A stretch of DNA of 64,000 bases. Source: Streptomyces dangxiongensis. Lineage in GTDB: Bacteria > Actinomycetota > Actinomycetes > Streptomycetales > Streptomycetaceae. Positions 36,885 through 42,893 of this stretch are shown in pieces. Numbering within the stretch: the stretch's first letter is position 1; every line of letters starts with the position of its first letter. A program made the translations under genes and the position numbers. Where the stretch lies: NCBI RefSeq assembly GCF_003675325.1, contig NZ_CP033073.1, positions 6,262,001 through 6,326,000 of the forward strand. The letters are read 5' to 3'. The notes under the pieces were generated by a model. It worked only from the letters and a program-made list of their open reading frames with translations. It was not told where the DNA came from and did not search any database.

Positions 36885-37199
36885 ATGACCCGCCCACTGA
36901 GCAGCCGTCCTCCCGCCGTCCGGGAGTGGCGGCTGAACCTGTACCTCTCCGAGCGCGATCCGGACACCACGGCCAGGATCGTCCTGGACACCGGCGACGG
37001 CGTCCTGGAGTGCCGTGCGGAGGCCCGCCGCAACCCCTACGACCCGGCGATGCCGGACATCGGCGACGAACTCGCCGCCGGCCGCGCCCTCATCGCCATG
37101 GGGCGCACGCTGCTGCGCGCCGCCGACGGCGACATGAGGGCGACGGGAGCCGCCGACACGGACGCCGCCCTGGCGCCGCTCTGGCTGACCCGCGAGTGA
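36885..37199 (+). CDS. DUF1876 (dsRBD-like fold) protein
   Basis: A 104-residue protein. The order VREWRLNLYLSERD, TTARIVLDTGDGVLECRAEA, RRNPYDPAMPDIGDELAAGR and LLRAADGDM matches DUF1876, a common small actinobacterial family with a double-stranded-RNA-binding-domain-like fold and no known role. ATG 36885 has a strong GGGAGGAGAG. It is the last chromosomal gene before the integrative element. Confidence 0.87.
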   Translation: MTRPLSSRPPAVREWRLNLYLSERDPDTTARIVLDTGDGVLECRAEARRNPYDPAMPDIGDELAAGRALIAMGRTLLRAADGDMRATGAADTDAALAPLWLTRE

Positions 37200-37233
37200 C
37201 GAGGGGCCCGCACCGGGCCGGGACAACGCGAAA

Positions 37234-37254
37234 GGCCCCCGCATCGCGGGGGCC
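37234..37254 (-). terminator. Original tRNA-Leu terminator, now stranded at the left end
   Basis: GGCCCCCGC (37234-37242), loop ATC, then GCGGGGGCC (37246-37254): a 9-bp perfect stem. On the minus strand it is followed by TTTCGCG. It sits 3 bp outside the left direct repeat, where the tRNA-Leu gene would have continued before insertion, and so looks like the tRNA's native terminator. It also lies after the DUF1876 stop and could serve that gene. Confidence 0.7.
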
Positions 37255-37256
37255 CT

Positions 37257-37282
37257 GCTGGTGTCCGAGGGGGGACTTGAAC
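37257..37282. other. attL (26-bp direct repeat of the tRNA 3' end)
   Basis: The string GCTGGTGTCCGAGGGG followed by GGACTTGAAC is identical to 42579-42604 and diverges immediately inwards. The DNA to its right keeps only loose tRNA-like similarity (GGGCACCAGCTCACTAG); the T-arm partner strand is mismatched, so it is not a second tRNA. Confidence 0.85.
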
Positions 37283-37359
37283 TCTCCACTCGGGCACCAG
37301 CTCACTAGTTAGCTGACCTGGGAAAACGTACCCTCCGAGACCCCTTCGAGGTCGTGAGG

Positions 37360-37431
37360 GTTGGTCATCCTCACCTGCTGTTTCTGCCCGTTCCTGGCCG
37401 CTGTTGGTCATGCGTTGGTCACGTGGCCAAC
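37360..37431 (+). repeat. Left arm-type repeats (GTTGGTCA)
   Basis: GTTGGTCA occurs at 37360-37367, 37403-37410 and 37414-37421. The last copy is part of the imperfect palindrome GTTGGTCACGTGGCCAAC (37414-37431). The same word occurs at the right end (42512 and 42524). Repeats of this kind flanking attachment sites are usually integrase/excisionase arm sites. Confidence 0.7.
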
Positions 37432-37451
37432 CAGGGCTGAGCAGTAGAGAA

Positions 37452-37493
37452 GCCCCGCCCATGCGCCACGGGGGAGAGACGCACGGACGGGGC
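37452..37493 (-). terminator. Terminator of the cargo operon
   Basis: Arms GCCCCGCCCATGCG (37452-37465) and CGCACGGACGGGGC (37480-37493) pair at 12 of 14 positions with a 14-base loop. On the minus strand TTCTCTACT follows. It lies just past the stop of the last cargo gene (37508). A smaller hairpin GACCGC/GCGGTC overlaps that stop. Confidence 0.6.
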
Positions 37494-37507
37494 GGCCAAG
37501 GGACCGC

Positions 37508-38452
37508 TCAGGCGGTCAGGCCGGGGTCGAAGTACCCCGGCGTTCGGAACAGGCCCATGAAGGTGCCGGGGCCGTGCCGTTCGTCCAGCCACGTTCCCAG
37601 CGCCGACGCGTCGCCGCTGATCATGGCCGCGAGAAGGCGCACGTCGCACTCGCTCTCTTCCCCAGGGGCGAACTCCTCAAGGAAGTGCGTGTACCGGCGA
37701 TTGACGCCCTTCTCGTAGCCGCTGAGGGCCTCCGCGTATCGCGTCTGCTCTTCGCTTTCCGGCACGGCCACCACGCGCCCGGCGTCCTCCTCCGTCAGAT
37801 TTCCCGTCACGTCCCGGAACGCCAGCACGCCGAGAACGTCTGAGGGCTCCGTCACGCCGAACCGTTCTGCCGTCTGCCGGGTGATGGAGCGCGCCTCTTT
37901 GTCGCACGCGCCCTCCATGACGATTCCGAGGTTCCGCGTGTGGTGGCTTCCGCGTTGGTCGGCAGCCGAGTAGGACTGTCCACTTGTGCGGCGGTAGTTG
38001 ATTCCGTACTGAGTGCGGACGGGCACCCCCGCCACTTCCACGTACCGCCGACGCGACCCGTAGTGAAGGCAGTCATGCGCGTACGCGCGCAGTAGATCGA
38101 GAAGGGCCAGCGCGGGCCGCTCTGGATTCCGGCGTTCCATGGGCCCGTACATGGTGATGATCGCCACCATTTGAAGGTGCCGGTACCCCTGGTCCGGGTG
38201 GTGGAAGCCACCGAAGGCACCGACCCGCGAGGATTCGCAACCGACCAACACGCGATCAAGCGGCAGTATCTTCGTTAGCCCGTACCCGGCGTACCTGCGC
38301 TTGGCGTTCTCGACGCCCGCATGGAATTGCGTGGTGTCGATTCCGTCTGCCGCCCACCGGCTGAGCATTTCCGACAACGGCCGGAACACATGGGCGGCGT
38401 GCTTTCCCGTGAGCGGGGACGCGTCGGCACGCATCGCCGCCAGTGCCGCCAT
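37508..38452 (-). CDS. Element cargo protein of unknown function
   Basis: A 314-residue soluble protein. Notable motifs are a possible metal or catalytic site LRAYAHDCLHYGSRRRYVEV near residue 150, preceded by VGCESSRVGAFGGFHHPDQG near 90, and NYRRTSGQSYSAADQRGSHH near 180. The C-terminal third is acidic (SGYEKGVNRRYTHFLEEFAP, GEESECD). I start at ATG 38452, after the Nudix stop, with TAAGGCA before it. An open frame continues back to ATG 38572 inside the Nudix gene. No membrane helix or signal. I do not recognise the family. Its position as the last gene of the operon with the Nudix protein suggests a joint function. It could be an effector, a metabolic enzyme or a defence component. Confidence 0.7.
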   Translation of the reverse strand: MAALAAMRADASPLTGKHAAHVFRPLSEMLSRWAADGIDTTQFHAGVENAKRRYAGYGLTKILPLDRVLVGCESSRVGAFGGFHHPDQGYRHLQMVAIITMYGPMERRNPERPALALLDLLRAYAHDCLHYGSRRRYVEVAGVPVRTQYGINYRRTSGQSYSAADQRGSHHTRNLGIVMEGACDKEARSITRQTAERFGVTEPSDVLGVLAFRDVTGNLTEEDAGRVVAVPESEEQTRYAEALSGYEKGVNRRYTHFLEEFAPGEESECDVRLLAAMISGDASALGTWLDERHGPGTFMGLFRTPGYFDPGLTA

Positions 38453-38493
38453 TGCCTTAGCCCCGGTTACGGATTCGTTCGGGGCGAGTTCCG

Positions 38494-38949
38494 TTAAGTC
38501 GCCGTGCCCGCCTTGATGAGCTGAATGTGAGACTCCTGCATCCCCTCCGGGAGCGCGTCCGGGCTGAACCATTCCGCCTCCAGAATCTCGAAGCTGTCGA
38601 GCTTGAGAGTTCCACCCACGTGAAGCGCTTCGTACGCGATTTCCACGCGGAGCTTGTAGCCACTGGTCACCTGAACCAGTCGCCCCGGAACGACTTCAAG
38701 GCCGGTTTCTTCCCGAACCTCTCGAACGATGGTATTCGGGAATTCCTCGCTCTTGATTGCGTAGCCGGTCGGGAACCCCCATGGCCGGTCTGCGGGCCAC
38801 ATTCGGTGCTTGAGGAGCAGGACTTCCCCCGCCTCGTTCCGCACGACGCCCGTCACGCCAATCATAAATTTGGCGTGCGCGAACCATAGGACGCGCCATT
38901 GTAGAGGGCCGCGAATGAGTTTCCACACTCGGGCAATGATTCGCTTCAT
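38494..38949 (-). CDS. Element-encoded Nudix hydrolase
   Basis: A 151-residue Nudix protein. The box GYAIKSEEFPNTIVREVREE followed by TGLEV (near residues 65-89) is a perfect GX5EX7REUXEEXGU. The N-terminus is unusual: a basic amphipathic start MKRIIARVWKLIRGPLQWRV, which may touch the membrane, leads into FAHAKFMIGVTGVVRNEAGE. ATG 38949 follows GAAAGGG; GTG 38955 is an alternative. Nudix genes are recurrent in Streptomyces AICEs, where a role in clearing a nucleotide signal has been proposed. It is the third gene of the cargo operon; the 41-bp gap to the last gene suggests cotranscription. Confidence 0.88.
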   Translation of the reverse strand: MKRIIARVWKLIRGPLQWRVLWFAHAKFMIGVTGVVRNEAGEVLLLKHRMWPADRPWGFPTGYAIKSEEFPNTIVREVREETGLEVVPGRLVQVTSGYKLRVEIAYEALHVGGTLKLDSFEILEAEWFSPDALPEGMQESHIQLIKAGTAT

Positions 38950-39021
38950 ACGCACCCTTTCAATAGGGCAAGCGCGTCGGCGCTTGCGGTGCCAGGCTCA
39001 ACCTATGCCGTGGGGTGCGGG

Positions 39022-39243
39022 TCACGCGTCCTTTTGCCGGGCCCAACGCTCACACGGGAAGGGGCATGGGGGCAGGGAGTTGGGCGGGAACGCAATCACG
39101 CCGGACGCAGGGTCAAGGGTGCCGCCGTACTCCTCCCACCAGCCGTCCCCTGCGGGCCGCTCGGAGCCCTCAACCAGGCTGACCACCTCGGGGGCCGGTA
39201 AGGCGCTCAGGCGAGCACCGGCCCGCTTCGCGGGGGTCGTCAC
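39022..39243 (-). CDS. Small element protein, second gene of cargo operon
   Basis: A 73-residue protein with no signal or membrane helix. It has an aromatic/acidic middle (GDGWWEEYGGTLDPASG) and a Cys-containing end (PPCPFPCERWARQKD). GTG 39243 overlaps the stop of the first cargo gene as GTGA, so the pair is translationally coupled, which is the main evidence that it is a real gene. Family not recognised. Confidence 0.6.
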   Translation of the reverse strand: MTTPAKRAGARLSALPAPEVVSLVEGSERPAGDGWWEEYGGTLDPASGVIAFPPNSLPPCPFPCERWARQKDA

Positions 39244-39482
39244 GCCTCACCGCCGGTCAGCCGCTTGTACTGCTCATCCTGGCCCCACGCCTCGGTGCAA
39301 AGGTGCTGCCAGGAAGGGCCGTCGACCGTCTGAGCCAGTCCGGCCGCTTCTTCGCCGTACTGCTCCCTGAGCGCTTCCGCAGAGAACGGTGCGGTTGCGT
39401 ACCAGTGCCGCGCGCCGTCACTGGCAGGTGCCGACTCAAGCGGCTTCCACCCTTCCGGCAGTCTGGCTGTAGCTTTGGGCAC
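39240..39482 (-). CDS. Small element protein, first gene of cargo operon
   Basis: An 80-residue acidic protein (GWKPLESAPASDGARHWYAT, then APFSAEALREQYGEEAAGLA, WQHLCTEAWGQDEQYKRL), probably helical. GTG 39482 with AAGGGG upstream is preferred. The frame is open to ATG 39584, which has no ribosome site and whose first 34 residues look unlike coding sequence. A GTTGAC half-site (39487-39492) lies just before this start. Function not recognised. Confidence 0.6.
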   Translation of the reverse strand: MPKATARLPEGWKPLESAPASDGARHWYATAPFSAEALREQYGEEAAGLAQTVDGPSWQHLCTEAWGQDEQYKRLTGGEA

Positions 39483-39590
39483 TGTCGTCAACCCCTTGAT
39501 GGTTGGTGGCCACGCCCCCGGACGTTCGCCCGTCGCGGGGGTCTTCCGTTGCGTCTGTCCACTCAACCGATTCCGCGCATACATGGGGCA

Positions 39591-39629
39591 GTTGACCAGC
39601 GTTGACTACGATGGCGGTCAACAGTCAAC
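39591..39629. promoter_or_regulatory. GTTGAC operator cluster between cargo operon and XRE-TPR gene
   Basis: GTTGAC at 39591 and 39601, then its complement GTCAAC at 39617 and 39624, form two face-to-face pairs within 39 bp. A fifth copy lies at 39487-39492. The cluster ends 12 bp before the XRE-TPR start. The arrangement points to cooperative binding by the adjacent XRE protein and divergent control of both transcripts. TTGACC/TACGAT here could also be promoter boxes. Confidence 0.65.
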
Positions 39630-39641
39630 GGGAGCTGCACC

Positions 39642-40802
39642 ATGATCGACTTCGGGTCTGAGGTACGGACGGCACTCAAGGCACAGGGGAAGAGCCTGAG
39701 AGGTGCAGCAAAGGAACTCCATTACGACGTTGCCTATCTGAGCCGGGTACTCAACGGGAAGCAAGCCCCCTCTTCCGAGTTGACGCAAGCCATTAACGAA
39801 TACCTCGGTCTAGCCCTGGAAGTAGAAGACAGCGGCACTCATGACGATGAGATGGACGCTTGGGAATTGGCTCGACGCGCTCAGGCAAGCGACGTAGGGA
39901 ATGCCACCCTTGAGCGCCTAGAGCGCGCCTTTGATGGCCTGGCCATGGCCTACCCCAAAGCCAAGCCGGAAGACTTGCTGAGGCAGGTACGCAAACACTC
40001 TGCCTATGTCGGAAAATTACTCGATGGCCAGAAGACCCTTTCACAACATCGTCGGTTGCTGGTCGTCGGGGGTTGGCTGTCTCTGCTCGGGGCAACGGCC
40101 CATATCGACCTTATGCAAGACGATGCCGCTACGGCTCTTCTAGAGACAGCCGCAACGCTTGCCAGGGAAGCCGGACACCGCGAGATTGAGGCATGGTGCT
40201 ATGAGACCGAGGCTTGGCGGGTCCTTACCGATGGGGATTATGTCCAAGCCGTTGACCTCTCCCGAGCCGCGCAGGAGATAGCTCCCGCTGAGGGCTCCGC
40301 AATCATTCAGGCCACAGCACAAGAGGGCCGAGCCAGCGCACGGCTAGGAAACGGGAAAGAGACCTACTCGGCCGTTGAACGGGTACAGGCTCTCTCTGCG
40401 GCAATCGGTTCCCCCGATACGCCAGAGCACCATTACCGCTATGACCCTGGAAAGGCTCTATCGTATACGGCTACGACACTCGCATGGCTCGGGGATTCAG
40501 CGGCCGAACCGTACGCCAGGGAAGTAATCAAGAAACTGAGCCCGAGTGACGATGTAAGTCAGTGGCCACGACGTGTAGCTTCCGCAAATATCGATCTTGC
40601 TTTGGTTCTTCTCAAGGCAGACCGGCTCGACGAAGCCTGCGATTCGGTACAGAAAGCCATTCTGTCCGGGAGAGTCGTCCCCTCAAATCATTGGCGTGCA
40701 CTGGAAGTCGTTAAGGCTGTCGAGGCTCGACAACTCCCGGAGAGTGCAGACCTGCGGGAGGCATACCAGGGCCTCAAGTCGATTGGGAAGAAAAAGGGAT
40801 AA
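39642..40802 (+). CDS. XRE-family regulator with TPR domain
   Basis: A 386-residue protein. The N-terminal helix-turn-helix is SLRGAAKELHYDVAYLSRVL, then NGKQAPSSELTQAINEYLGL, near residues 18-60. A long helical-repeat region follows (AATALLETAATLAREAGHRE, VQAVDLSRAAQEIAPAEGSA, ALVLLKADRLDEACDSVQKA), typical of TPR. Such HTH-TPR proteins in Streptomyces elements and biosynthetic clusters often sense a peptide or small ligand. ATG 39642 follows GGGAGC. GC content is clearly lower than in the flanking chromosome. It faces the cargo operon across the GTTGAC cluster, so it likely controls that operon and itself. RRNPP-type signalling is a possibility, not shown. Confidence 0.85.
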   Translation: MIDFGSEVRTALKAQGKSLRGAAKELHYDVAYLSRVLNGKQAPSSELTQAINEYLGLALEVEDSGTHDDEMDAWELARRAQASDVGNATLERLERAFDGLAMAYPKAKPEDLLRQVRKHSAYVGKLLDGQKTLSQHRRLLVVGGWLSLLGATAHIDLMQDDAATALLETAATLAREAGHREIEAWCYETEAWRVLTDGDYVQAVDLSRAAQEIAPAEGSAIIQATAQEGRASARLGNGKETYSAVERVQALSAAIGSPDTPEHHYRYDPGKALSYTATTLAWLGDSAAEPYAREVIKKLSPSDDVSQWPRRVASANIDLALVLLKADRLDEACDSVQKAILSGRVVPSNHWRALEVVKAVEARQLPESADLREAYQGLKSIGKKKG

Positions 40803-40807
40803 CAACG

Positions 40808-41203
40808 ATTCGACACCGGCAGATCGACTTCAAGAAGGCGGGCGACCAGTTCCGCGCCGCCCGGCCGGCCGACCCTGAGCAGCAGGTCACGCAGGAGGCA
40901 GAGGGTGAGGCGCTGCGGTGGCTGCTGGGCTCCGAGGGCGTCTCGGATGCCTACCTGGCCTTCCTGGCGGAGGCGTACGTCAGGGCCGTCTCACGGGCCG
41001 TACCCAACGTCACCGCGCACCTGGCCGAACTAACCAACAAGCGTCCCGAAACGATCCGAGGCCACCTCAAGGAAGCCCGGAAACGGGACCTGCTGACCAC
41101 GGTGCCCGGCAAGGCCGGGGGTCAGCTCACCACCAAGGCAAAGGGGATCGCGACAGGCGAGTACCTCGACAAGATCACTGATCACCTCATGGGTAACGAC
41201 TAG
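40808..41203 (+). CDS. wHTH-like protein before the integrase, no standard start codon
   Basis: A 131-residue frame ending at TAG 41203, 18 bp before the integrase. The C-terminal half holds a helix-turn-helix-like segment, VTAHLAELTNKRPETIRGHL, then KEARKRDLL, followed by GKAGGQLTTKAKG, resembling a winged HTH. Downstream of the XRE-TPR stop the frame has no ATG, GTG or TTG until inside the conserved part. An ATT at 40808 sits nine bases after AAGGGA and could be a rare start; otherwise the gene lost its 5' end when it was joined to the XRE-TPR gene. Its position fits an excisionase/recombination-directionality role. Family not recognised. Confidence 0.6.
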   Translation: MRHRQIDFKKAGDQFRAARPADPEQQVTQEAEGEALRWLLGSEGVSDAYLAFLAEAYVRAVSRAVPNVTAHLAELTNKRPETIRGHLKEARKRDLLTTVPGKAGGQLTTKAKGIATGEYLDKITDHLMGND

Positions 41204-41220
41204 AAAGGCAACCCACCCAC

Positions 41221-42492
41221 GTGACAAAGCGCGGTAACGGGCTCGGGGGGACTCCGGTGGAGATCCCGCGTAAGGGCAGACCGAACACCTGGGGCGTGCG
41301 CACCCCACTCCACTTCGACAAGGCGCAGGGCAAGAGGATCCGTTACTGGATCGGTCGGGAGTACACGACCAAGACCGCAGCAGAGAAGGCACTGCGGGAG
41401 TGGCACAGCAACTACGAGGCGGGCAAGATCGCGGCCCGCTCGGACATGAAGCTGGGTGACTGGCTGGACAAGTGGCTGTCGAATCATCGAAAGGAGGGAA
41501 CGACCGTGGCCGGGTACGAAACGAAGATCCGTCTTCACATAAAGCCGCACATCGGTGGCGTGAAGCTGTGCGAGGTCACTGACGACATGCTTGATGATCT
41601 GTACCGGCTGCTGGAGACGGCTCCGTGCGCGACCAACAAGGGCAAGCCGCTCGGAGCGAAGAGCGTCCGGCACGTGCACAACATCCTCTCCGGCGCTCTT
41701 GGGGCTGCTGTGCCGAAGCTGATCCCGGCCAACCCTGCGGCGACGGCGCACCCGCCCACGGCGCGGGAGATACGGGCGCAGGAACAGAAGTACCCCACGG
41801 TGGACGACGGTCAGACGGCCCGCTTCCTGGGCTCGGTTTGGGAGCCGCGCGGTAACCGGGTCTGTGATGGCGGCCTGACGCATCACTGTCTTCGGGATGC
41901 TCCGCTGTGGACGGTCTACGCGGCGACCGGTGTCCGACGCAGTGAGGCCCTGGGGATGAAGTGGTCTCTCATCCGCTGGGATGAAGGGGCCATCGAACTG
42001 GGATGGGTCGTGGTGGAGGAGGGGAACACATACCGGCTGCGGAAGCTGACCAAGGATGGCGACGACAATGCCGTCATCTATGTGGATCAGTCTGTGATGA
42101 ACGTCCTGAAGTGGCAGAAGCAGCGCCAGGACGACGAAAGGGCACGGCTCGACTCTGCCTGGGTCGATCATGACCTTGTGTTCGCCCGGGATGGGTTCAA
42201 GCTCTACCGGGGCGAGGCAGGGGGCCCGCAGGACCCCGAGAAGGTCTCGGCACGGTGGCGCACGCTGCGGAACCGTCTCCACCTGCCCGATGACTTCCGT
42301 ATCCACGACTGGAGGCACAGCAAGGTCACGAACGATCTGGAGGCCGGAGAGAACCCGGTAGAGGTCTCCGCCAACGTCCGGCACCACTCGCCGGGCTACA
42401 CCATGGCAAAGTACGGCCACTCTCGTAAGGACGGGGCCCGCCGACTGGCCGCCTCCGGTGCGGGCCGACTCGGCCTGTCATCCCTGGTCTGA
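41221..42492 (+). CDS. int: Tyrosine-recombinase integrase
   Basis: A 423-residue site-specific recombinase. N-terminal DNA-arm and SAM-like core-binding regions are RYWIGREYTTKTAAEKALRE and KLGDWLDKWLSNHRKEGTTV. The catalytic domain shows Arg in AATGVRRSEALGMKW near residue 241, the box HDWRHSKVTNDL near residue 362 (Arg again), and the His/Tyr end VRHHSPGYTMAKYGHS near residue 386 with the nucleophilic Tyr in KYGH. GTG 41221 has GAAAGG upstream. It ends 89 bp from the tRNA-Leu CCA end, with two GTTGGTCAC repeats between. It should catalyse insertion into and excision from the tRNA gene. Confidence 0.95.
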   Translation: MTKRGNGLGGTPVEIPRKGRPNTWGVRTPLHFDKAQGKRIRYWIGREYTTKTAAEKALREWHSNYEAGKIAARSDMKLGDWLDKWLSNHRKEGTTVAGYETKIRLHIKPHIGGVKLCEVTDDMLDDLYRLLETAPCATNKGKPLGAKSVRHVHNILSGALGAAVPKLIPANPAATAHPPTAREIRAQEQKYPTVDDGQTARFLGSVWEPRGNRVCDGGLTHHCLRDAPLWTVYAATGVRRSEALGMKWSLIRWDEGAIELGWVVVEEGNTYRLRKLTKDGDDNAVIYVDQSVMNVLKWQKQRQDDERARLDSAWVDHDLVFARDGFKLYRGEAGGPQDPEKVSARWRTLRNRLHLPDDFRIHDWRHSKVTNDLEAGENPVEVSANVRHHSPGYTMAKYGHSRKDGARRLAASGAGRLGLSSLV

Positions 42493-42511
42493 CCTGGGGA
42501 TTCTCCAGGCT

Positions 42512-42532
42512 GTTGGTCACGTGGTTGGTCAC
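42512..42532 (+). repeat. Right arm-type repeats (GTTGGTCAC)
   Basis: GTTGGTCAC at 42512-42520 and 42524-42532, a 12-bp spacing, lie between the integrase stop and attR. They match the left-end copies at 37360, 37403 and 37414. Confidence 0.7.
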
Positions 42533-42555
42533 GCCACAGTCCTGGAAAGCAGAAA

Positions 42556-42574
42556 ACCCCACGTGAAGTGGGGT
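42556..42574 (-). terminator. Element-supplied replacement terminator for tRNA-Leu
   Basis: ACCCCAC (42556-42562), loop GTGAA, GTGGGGT (42568-42574). On the minus strand the stem is followed by TTTTCTGC, and it begins 7 bp after the tRNA CCA end. In the opposite direction it may also stop the integrase transcript. Confidence 0.7.
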
Positions 42575-42578
42575 CTCA

Positions 42579-42604
42579 GCTGGTGTCCGAGGGGGGACTT
42601 GAAC
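42579..42604. other. attR (26-bp direct repeat within tRNA-Leu 3' end)
   Basis: Identical to 37257-37282. It covers the tRNA acceptor 3' strand, CCA, and the loop-side and 3' strand of the T arm, a usual integration target for tyrosine integrases. Confidence 0.85.
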
Positions 42605-42668
42605 CCCCACGCCCGATAAAGGGCACTAGCACCTCAAGCTAGCGCGTCTGCCATTCCGCCACCCGGAC
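42581..42668 (-). tRNA. tRNA-Leu (anticodon GAG)
   Basis: An 88-nt class II tRNA including an encoded CCA at 42581-42583. The acceptor stem GTCCGGG pairs with CTCGGAC (one G-T). The anticodon loop TTGAGGT sits in stem CTAGC/GCTAG, giving anticodon GAG, which reads CUC and CUU. It has a long variable arm (GCCCTTTATCGGGC) as expected for leucine, and the T arm GGGGGTTCAAGTCCCCC. Its 3' part is the element attachment site. Confidence 0.97.
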
Positions 42669-42893
42669 AAGGTGTCTGTCGTACGAGATCTCCCATTCGA
42701 CGGGGTTTTCCTCGCGGCGACGAAGGAAACATTACCAGGCTTTCCGGGGTGGCCGATCACCCCCTTCCCCGGCGGAGCCCCGGGCGGCCGCCGCGTGAAC
42801 GGCGTGTGACGGGCCCGGCCCCGTCTTGGGCCCGGGGCGCGCCCGGAGAGAGGATGAGAGGAACCACCAGCAGTGACAGCGGGAGGAAGCAGC

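Follow-up and report, generated by a model that had tools for sequence, protein, structure and literature searches.

How does an insertion of only 5.3 kb, with an integrase and no visible gene for replication or transfer, come to be lodged at a tRNA gene, and what is its cargo for? The question is raised by positions 37257-42604 of a stretch of 64,000 nucleotides from Streptomyces dangxiongensis (contig NZ_CP033073.1, positions 6,262,001 to 6,326,000 of the forward strand), which we call the window. A sequence-only reading of this DNA had placed three origins side by side: a stripped actinomycete integrative and conjugative element (AICE), a satellite mobilised by another element, and a defence or signalling island. 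The satellite is the one to retain and the AICE has lost ground: the island has full-size relatives with capsid, primase-like and excisionase-like genes, and Streptomyces capoamus carries such a core together with the same cargo. The element is probably what an internal deletion of the core has left of a Streptomyces phage-satellite-like island.

The element was inserted at the 3′ end of tRNA-Leu(GAG), with duplication of a 26-bp core and with the tRNA left intact. Perfect copies of this core, GCTGGTGTCCGAGGGGGGACTTGAAC, flank the insert, at the sole tRNA called by ARAGORN within the window (coordinates are collected in the table). Of the seven plus-strand copies of TTGGTCA, the presumed arm motif, found in 64 kb, three lie near the left end and two near the right, and the chromosomal terminator of the tRNA now stands left of the element, which parts it from its gene. 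A search with the left flank in 100 genomes, own included, gave strong matches (E ≤ 1e-92) in four relatives, all fetched, and the site is empty in the four of them. In G016, G020 and G003 (loci L096-L098) terminator, one core copy and tRNA are contiguous and collinear with the window; in G033 (L099) the tRNA site is empty as well, yet the upstream flank is inverted and located elsewhere. The seven element proteins are absent from these four loci at E ≤ 1e-3. The sequence-only reading had claimed an insertion from the repeats, arm sites and integrase, and had proposed a comparison with empty sites of close strains: this comparison bears the claim out. In the three collinear relatives, moreover, the upstream gene is separated from the terminator of the tRNA by about 4.2 kb of DNA that is not present beside the element in the window strain (window 37200-37230); in G016 this DNA has open reading frames (ORFs) of 575, 410 and 376 aa, and G020 has a stretch of it at 90% identity. 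The second tRNA-Leu(GAG) of the S. dangxiongensis genome (G000:C2:1290086-1304385, L061) harbours a decayed island with the same core, one mismatch apart at the left, in which an integrase fragment (36% identity over 80 aa) is accompanied by transposase-like ORFs and by a gene of XRE type.

The layout of the element is simple. An XRE-TPR regulator, the remnant of a helix-turn-helix (HTH) gene and a tyrosine integrase read rightward; two small proteins (p114 and p73), a Nudix hydrolase and a 354-aa protein read leftward. The integrase, the divergent regulator and the four-gene operon with its unrecognised last product had all been named correctly, and a single gene, the HTH frame, had been overlooked. 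This frame has no ATG, GTG or TTG start and matches phrog_11473 (E 1.4e-25). The regulator passes HTH_3 (30.8 bits, cutoff 23) and the NsdA-family model NF053720 (114.7 bits, cutoff 75), TPR_12 staying slightly below its cutoff (29.5 bits against 30.1). The Nudix box is intact by eye. Pfam detects no Rep or TraB-type domain in the seven proteins, in agreement with the earlier statement that no replication or transfer genes are visible. With L130, a full-size relative, as the source of queries, neither an excisionase (best E 0.29) nor a primase (best E 0.36) is found in the element; nothing of the core is traced beyond the HTH gene and the integrase, the best other match being that of the terminase query, at E 0.025. 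The S. dangxiongensis genome has no capsid match at E ≤ 1e-20 and no primase-like match at E ≤ 1e-60; the excisionase query found nothing there either, which is uninformative as it had no positive control.

Two relatives locate what is missing. In S. capoamus (L020), a capsid core with a different integrase is followed by a cassette of the window type. Its core resembles that of L130 (capsid 95%, primase-like 89%, excisionase-like 86% identity) and its cassette that of the window (Nudix 97%, XRE-TPR 91%, 354-aa protein 88%, p73 77%), with two small genes between p73 and Nudix that the window lacks, and a related hairpin at the end. There, the primase-like gene follows XRE-TPR and is convergent with it. 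In the window, the XRE-TPR stop at 40802 stands directly before 40817, where DNA similarity to L130 starts again, in the interior of the HTH gene near codon 90 (protein match from residue 83). Against the L020/L130 layout, the window element is missing the whole stretch from the XRE-TPR stop to a point near codon 90 in the HTH gene. By their sequence, the integrase, the att ends and the truncated HTH gene belong to the family of islands found at tRNA-Leu(GAG). A second core-poor copy is present in S. olivaceoviridis (L025), with an integrase fragment, a possible primase fragment and a broken XRE-TPR gene, the Nudix and 354-aa genes being retained.

The integrase has DNA matches (E ≤ 1e-30) in 35 of 392 genomes of the genus, own included, and we fetched 18 of the regions, from 17 genomes. 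The tRNA-Leu(GAG) lies beside the integrase in 17 of them, L147 having neither tRNA nor core. All 18 have an integrase-side match of some extent, and the left end (37257-37432) is kept in all save six, which are cut contigs or lack it. Bounds set by two core copies are possible in 11 regions (5.9-11.9 kb), seven of which have no capsid match, so that the site hosts varied islands. Four bounded islands, of 10.9-11.4 kb, share one gene order: HTH, a capsid protein of 301-303 aa, a neighbour of 114-121 aa, an Lsr2-like protein and a primase-like protein. These are L130, L132, L134 and L136 (integrase identity to the window copy 95%, 94%, 91% and 83%), which also have excisionase-like homologues (found by tblastn in the last three). 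The capsid proteins of L130 and L020 match phrog_267 (E 6e-45 and 1e-44), and that of L130 passes PF25209 (32.3 bits, cutoff 27). The primase-like protein of L130 has a match to DUF3987 and weaker ones to primase phrogs; L020 has this protein too, and L132, L134 and L136 have homologues by tblastn. The L130 Lsr2-like protein passes PF23359, a BRCT match falling narrowly below cutoff, and a 54-aa protein of L020, relative of an L130 protein, is excisionase-like. Finally, a 113-aa protein resembles small terminases (Terminase_7, 33.3 bits, cutoff 27). Distant relatives of it (27-29% identity) occur in L190 and L191, which we take as ordinary prophages, directly upstream of frames of 540-588 aa and about 5 kb before the capsid gene. 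This is the placement of a small terminase, the large frames not being identified by family; the same query has no match in phage records. No portal, protease, connector or large terminase was recognised by family in the ten of 19 L130 ORFs scanned; for L132, L134 and L136 the absence of portal and large terminase is judged from ORF size alone, the largest ORF outside core, regulator and integrase reaching 232 aa in the four bounded capsid islands, as delimited by the ORF caller.

We infer from this gene content that the family may be one of satellites. The window element would then result from a deletion or recombination that fused the XRE-TPR end with an internal position of the HTH gene and took away the excision, replication and capsid genes, so that, short of an excisionase from outside, it is expected to be immobile. 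XRE-TPR would bind the double GTTGAC/GTCAAC palindrome, a putative operator which differs by one base across the window, L020 and L025, and so repress the divergent operon until its TPR part perceives a signal that lifts the block. The Nudix and 354-aa proteins would then act jointly, their most likely purpose being to impede a phage or a competing element that enters the cell. The full-size relatives would depend, for their packaging, on a helper phage that supplies the rest of the head and the tail. A wider proposal, which we consider possible and somewhat doubtful as a whole, is that of an undescribed class of Streptomyces satellites of about 11 kb, with one capsid gene, primase-like and Lsr2-like genes, in some a small-terminase-like gene, and neither portal nor large terminase, which would therefore form hybrid particles completed by helper components. 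They would swap integrases and left-end XRE cassettes, the window element being a natural deletion that keeps the integrase and a phage-protective Nudix/HDxxH cassette.

What the cargo does is the second half of the question. The 354-aa gene is accessory: it is present in 20 of the 392 genomes, own included, two of which have fragments only, and its distribution disposes of the idea that the cargo consists of syntenic core genes. The Nudix gene stands immediately upstream of it in 38 of 42 loci, and in the window the two frames overlap by 79 nt (38494-38572). In most relatives the 354-aa frame has CTG, TTA, GTA or TTG at the Nudix stop, which makes the start codon given here tentative. The protein has no Pfam match. 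Its HDxxH...E motif is near-invariant and its similarity to the zincin fold is weak; a viral fold library gave nothing at E ≤ 0.001 with a first model of the protein, solved structures gave a single sequence match (E 0.77), and the five viral contig stretches that fit a pattern encoded no relative. In three loci (L047:8966-9421, L052:7073-7552 and L053) the gene has a further neighbour of 151-159 aa (cluster 28), SLOG-like by eye.

That this protein is a zincin-fold peptidase cleaving a regulator, as ImmA-like peptidases do, or a phage protein, the Nudix enzyme supplying or removing a nucleotide signal, is a proposal that we regard as plausible without preferring it; HDxxH stands where zincin metallopeptidases have HExxH. 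Somewhat less credit goes to a cargo that has no present function. L025, with its broken XRE-TPR and most of its core lost, would illustrate such a fate, as would the 354-aa relatives that are broken or fragmentary; against it stand the ratios of non-synonymous to synonymous substitution (dN/dS) relative to L020, 0.06 for Nudix, 0.09 for XRE-TPR, 0.19 for the 354-aa gene and 0.21 for p73, together with the conserved putative operator. The earlier suggestion that the cargo is a functional module is thus supported indirectly, by the constancy of the Nudix/354-aa pair and by the dN/dS of XRE-TPR, Nudix and integrase (0.06-0.09). A role in defence is a guess. PADLOC, run on ten accessory proteins of relatives, links the L130 Nudix to PDC-S07 (E 9e-12) and a gene of capsid island L184 (5440-6069) to a mad2-like methyltransferase (E 5e-15), its other matches being to HTH-type models. 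Rare TTA codons occur in the 354-aa gene (codon 26), in p73 (codon 15) and in XRE-TPR (codon 126), where bldA dependence is possible.

Some parts of the element are held in common with phages. The 42-bp hairpin 3′ of the leftward operon is also found in phiC31-like phages and in viral contigs of 40-41 kb, within capsid island L187, and near the 354-aa gene in four of 42 loci (L020, L022, L024 and L025, with at most two mismatches in the 17-base core). The genome itself has the exact core once, and three further places with two mismatches, a reversed control giving two. The conserved loop suggests something more than a plain terminator. DNA of the p73 region is 70% identical to genes 25.2/25.3 of phiBT1. 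These similarities show shared parts, and demonstrate no helper. A phiC31-like helper acting through shared cos ends was considered and rejected: a search of the islands with the terminal pieces of phiBT1 and RemusLoopin (140 bases at the start and 60 at the end of each) gave a single 16-mer, which lies outside the L134 element.

Several observations weigh against the satellite origin and against what we make of it. Packaging, induction and helper are putative for all members, and the full-size relatives may instead be what remains of prophages that have been domesticated. In the family comparison, which covered 15 satellite-type capsid loci (L020, L130, L132, L134, L136 and L180-L189), excisionase-like, capsid, Lsr2-like and primase-like genes occur together in 10 only, among them L187, where the primase-like and Lsr2-like proteins are just 35-36% identical; the excisionase match is missing from L180, L186 and L189, the contig of L181 measures just 4.3 kb, and in L185 the capsid gene and its neighbour stand alone. 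The small-terminase-like gene is matched in five of the 15 (L130, L134, L181, L184 and L186), PHROGs labels its family 'minor tail', and the end pieces of two phiC31-like phages match within no island. The window integrase, with a dN/dS of 0.07, does not look long dead. As for the cassette, none of the satellite query genes has a match near the 354-aa gene in 36 of 42 loci, so that the cassette is not tied to satellites, and among defence models its own Nudix reaches PDC-S07 at E 4e-6 and XRE-TPR reaches HTH_VI and RmrA only at E 0.02-0.04.

These facts bear on another view of the capsid islands, as such domesticated remains of prophages or as host devices based on a capsid, of which the window element would be a further decay step. 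One clear head gene, a terminase-like gene in some, no known helper or packaging site, the reduced L185 and the decayed island at the other tRNA-Leu(GAG) all speak for it. We find it unlikely all the same, for gene order is kept with more than one integrase type (at least two further types are associated with the capsid core), the four bounded tRNA-Leu capsid islands are uniform in size, and the islands have primase-like and excisionase-like genes of their own. The capsid gene is under purifying selection (dN/dS 0.065-0.129, ten pairs of five genes) and, judged from search identities and no tree, stands apart from prophage-type capsids: in the 392 genomes 14 matches, in 13 genomes, fall at 73-100% and 16 at 30-35%, with none in between. 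For members outside tRNA-Leu, the bounds set by direct repeats (15-22-mers) are provisional, and no argument here draws on them.

The stripped AICE, a descendant of a conjugative actinomycete element deprived of rep and tra in which the Nudix would confer conjugal immunity as Pif does and XRE-TPR would be an NsdA-like AICE regulator, is very improbable and was rejected: the tRNA site and the tyrosine integrase fit, and the cited text agrees with the earlier remark that AICEs often carry Nudix genes and describes an mdp-nud-xre cluster and, for 11 of 16 AICEs of Frankia, XRE genes whose products include NsdA-like proteins of 281-441 aa (PMC3218068), whereas neither the window element nor the ten L130 ORFs scanned, of 19, show a Rep or TraB domain, the closest bounded relatives encode capsid and primase-like genes, and the 354-aa protein, having no Pfam match at all, has no HD-phosphohydrolase match.

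Table. Features of the island and its insertion site, in window coordinates. Rfam (E ≤ 1, 37000-42800) adds nothing besides the tRNA.
Feature	Position	Strand	Support or remark
Chromosomal tRNA-Leu terminator	37234..37254		sequence; hairpins at equivalent place beside tRNA in L096-L098
Left att core, 26 bp	37257..37282		repeat; single core copy in empty sites
Left att arm, TTGGTCA at 37361, 37404, 37415	37283..37432		74-93% identity in 12/18 integrase-relative loci
Conserved hairpin, likely terminator of leftward operon, common to phiC31-like phages	37452..37493		81-nt fold, z -5.58
354-aa protein, HDxxH...E motif, putative metalloenzyme	37508..38572	-	start codon uncertain
Nudix hydrolase, 153 aa	38494..38955	-	PF00293 58.6 bits, cutoff 21.1
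p73, 73-aa protein	39022..39243	-	relatives in L020, L025, L130
p114, ORF up to 114 aa, start uncertain	39240..39584	-	partial relatives: L130 41% over 71 aa, L020 39% over 44 aa
Putative operator, GTTGAC at 39591 and 39601, GTCAAC at 39617 and 39624	39591..39629		half-sites for putative XRE-TPR binding
XRE-TPR (NsdA-family) regulator, 386 aa	39642..40802	+	91% identity in L020
Putative deletion/recombination junction, XRE-TPR stop to HTH-gene interior	40803..40816
5′-truncated remnant of 217-aa HTH gene	40808..41203	+	no standard start codon
Tyrosine integrase, 423 aa, intact	41221..42492	+	PF00589 42.5 bits, cutoff 27.1; 95% identity to L130
Right att arm, TTGGTCA at 42513 and 42525	42493..42578		element-supplied terminator hairpin 42557-42573
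Right att core	42579..42604		repeat; overlaps tRNA 3′ end
tRNA-Leu(GAG)	42581..42668	-	intact post-insertion

If the satellite-like origin is retained, an unexplained 5-kb island becomes a decay step of a phage-satellite-like family, and attention shifts to Streptomyces islands of about 11 kb which encode a capsid protein, the remaining head genes being absent. The Nudix/354-aa pair, compact and widely shared, can be tested for phage defence. How does all this compare with known systems? With an AICE such as pSAM2 (PMC3218068) the window element has in common insertion at a tRNA, a tyrosine integrase, flanking repeats, and Nudix and NsdA-like regulator genes; it differs in that no Rep or TraB domain appears in it or in the scanned L130 proteins. 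The islands named PICMIs, for phage-inducible chromosomal minimalist islands, are also very small, PICMI115 having 6110 bp, with a core of three proteins for excision and replication (PMC10803314); of these functions, the window element retains the integrase alone. Phage-inducible chromosomal islands (PICIs; PMC6092414) have their own attachment site and integrase, and the full-size relatives resemble them further by excisionase-like and primase-like genes, by a divergent regulator and by accessory genes that sit at one end. Unlike PICIs, these relatives encode a major capsid protein, while the window copy has no excision, replication or packaging genes. Capsid-forming PICIs (cf-PICIs; PMC10690885) are nearer in having their own major capsid protein, with a small-terminase-like gene in some of our islands, and differ by the protease, portal, connectors and large terminase, none of which is evident in the relatives (from ten of 19 L130 ORFs, and from ORF size in the others). 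MiniFlayer and MulchRoom are satellites of Streptomyces that bring a capsid gene of their own; they also encode portal and large terminase and lack key replication genes (PMC10690885); the capsid islands, by contrast, are chromosomal, have a primase-like gene, and possess the capsid as their only head gene, with a terminase-like gene in some. We found no earlier description of capsid-only Streptomyces satellites in the open-access library searched, the predicted Actinomycetota PICIs of PMC10690885 lying outside the comparison. Satellites with a capsid gene and neither portal nor large terminase would amount to a novel variant. If satellites they are, they would stand as an intermediate between classical PICIs, which have no capsid gene, and cf-PICIs, which encode the whole head, and they would offer a direct test of a satellite capsid working with the portal and tail of a helper.

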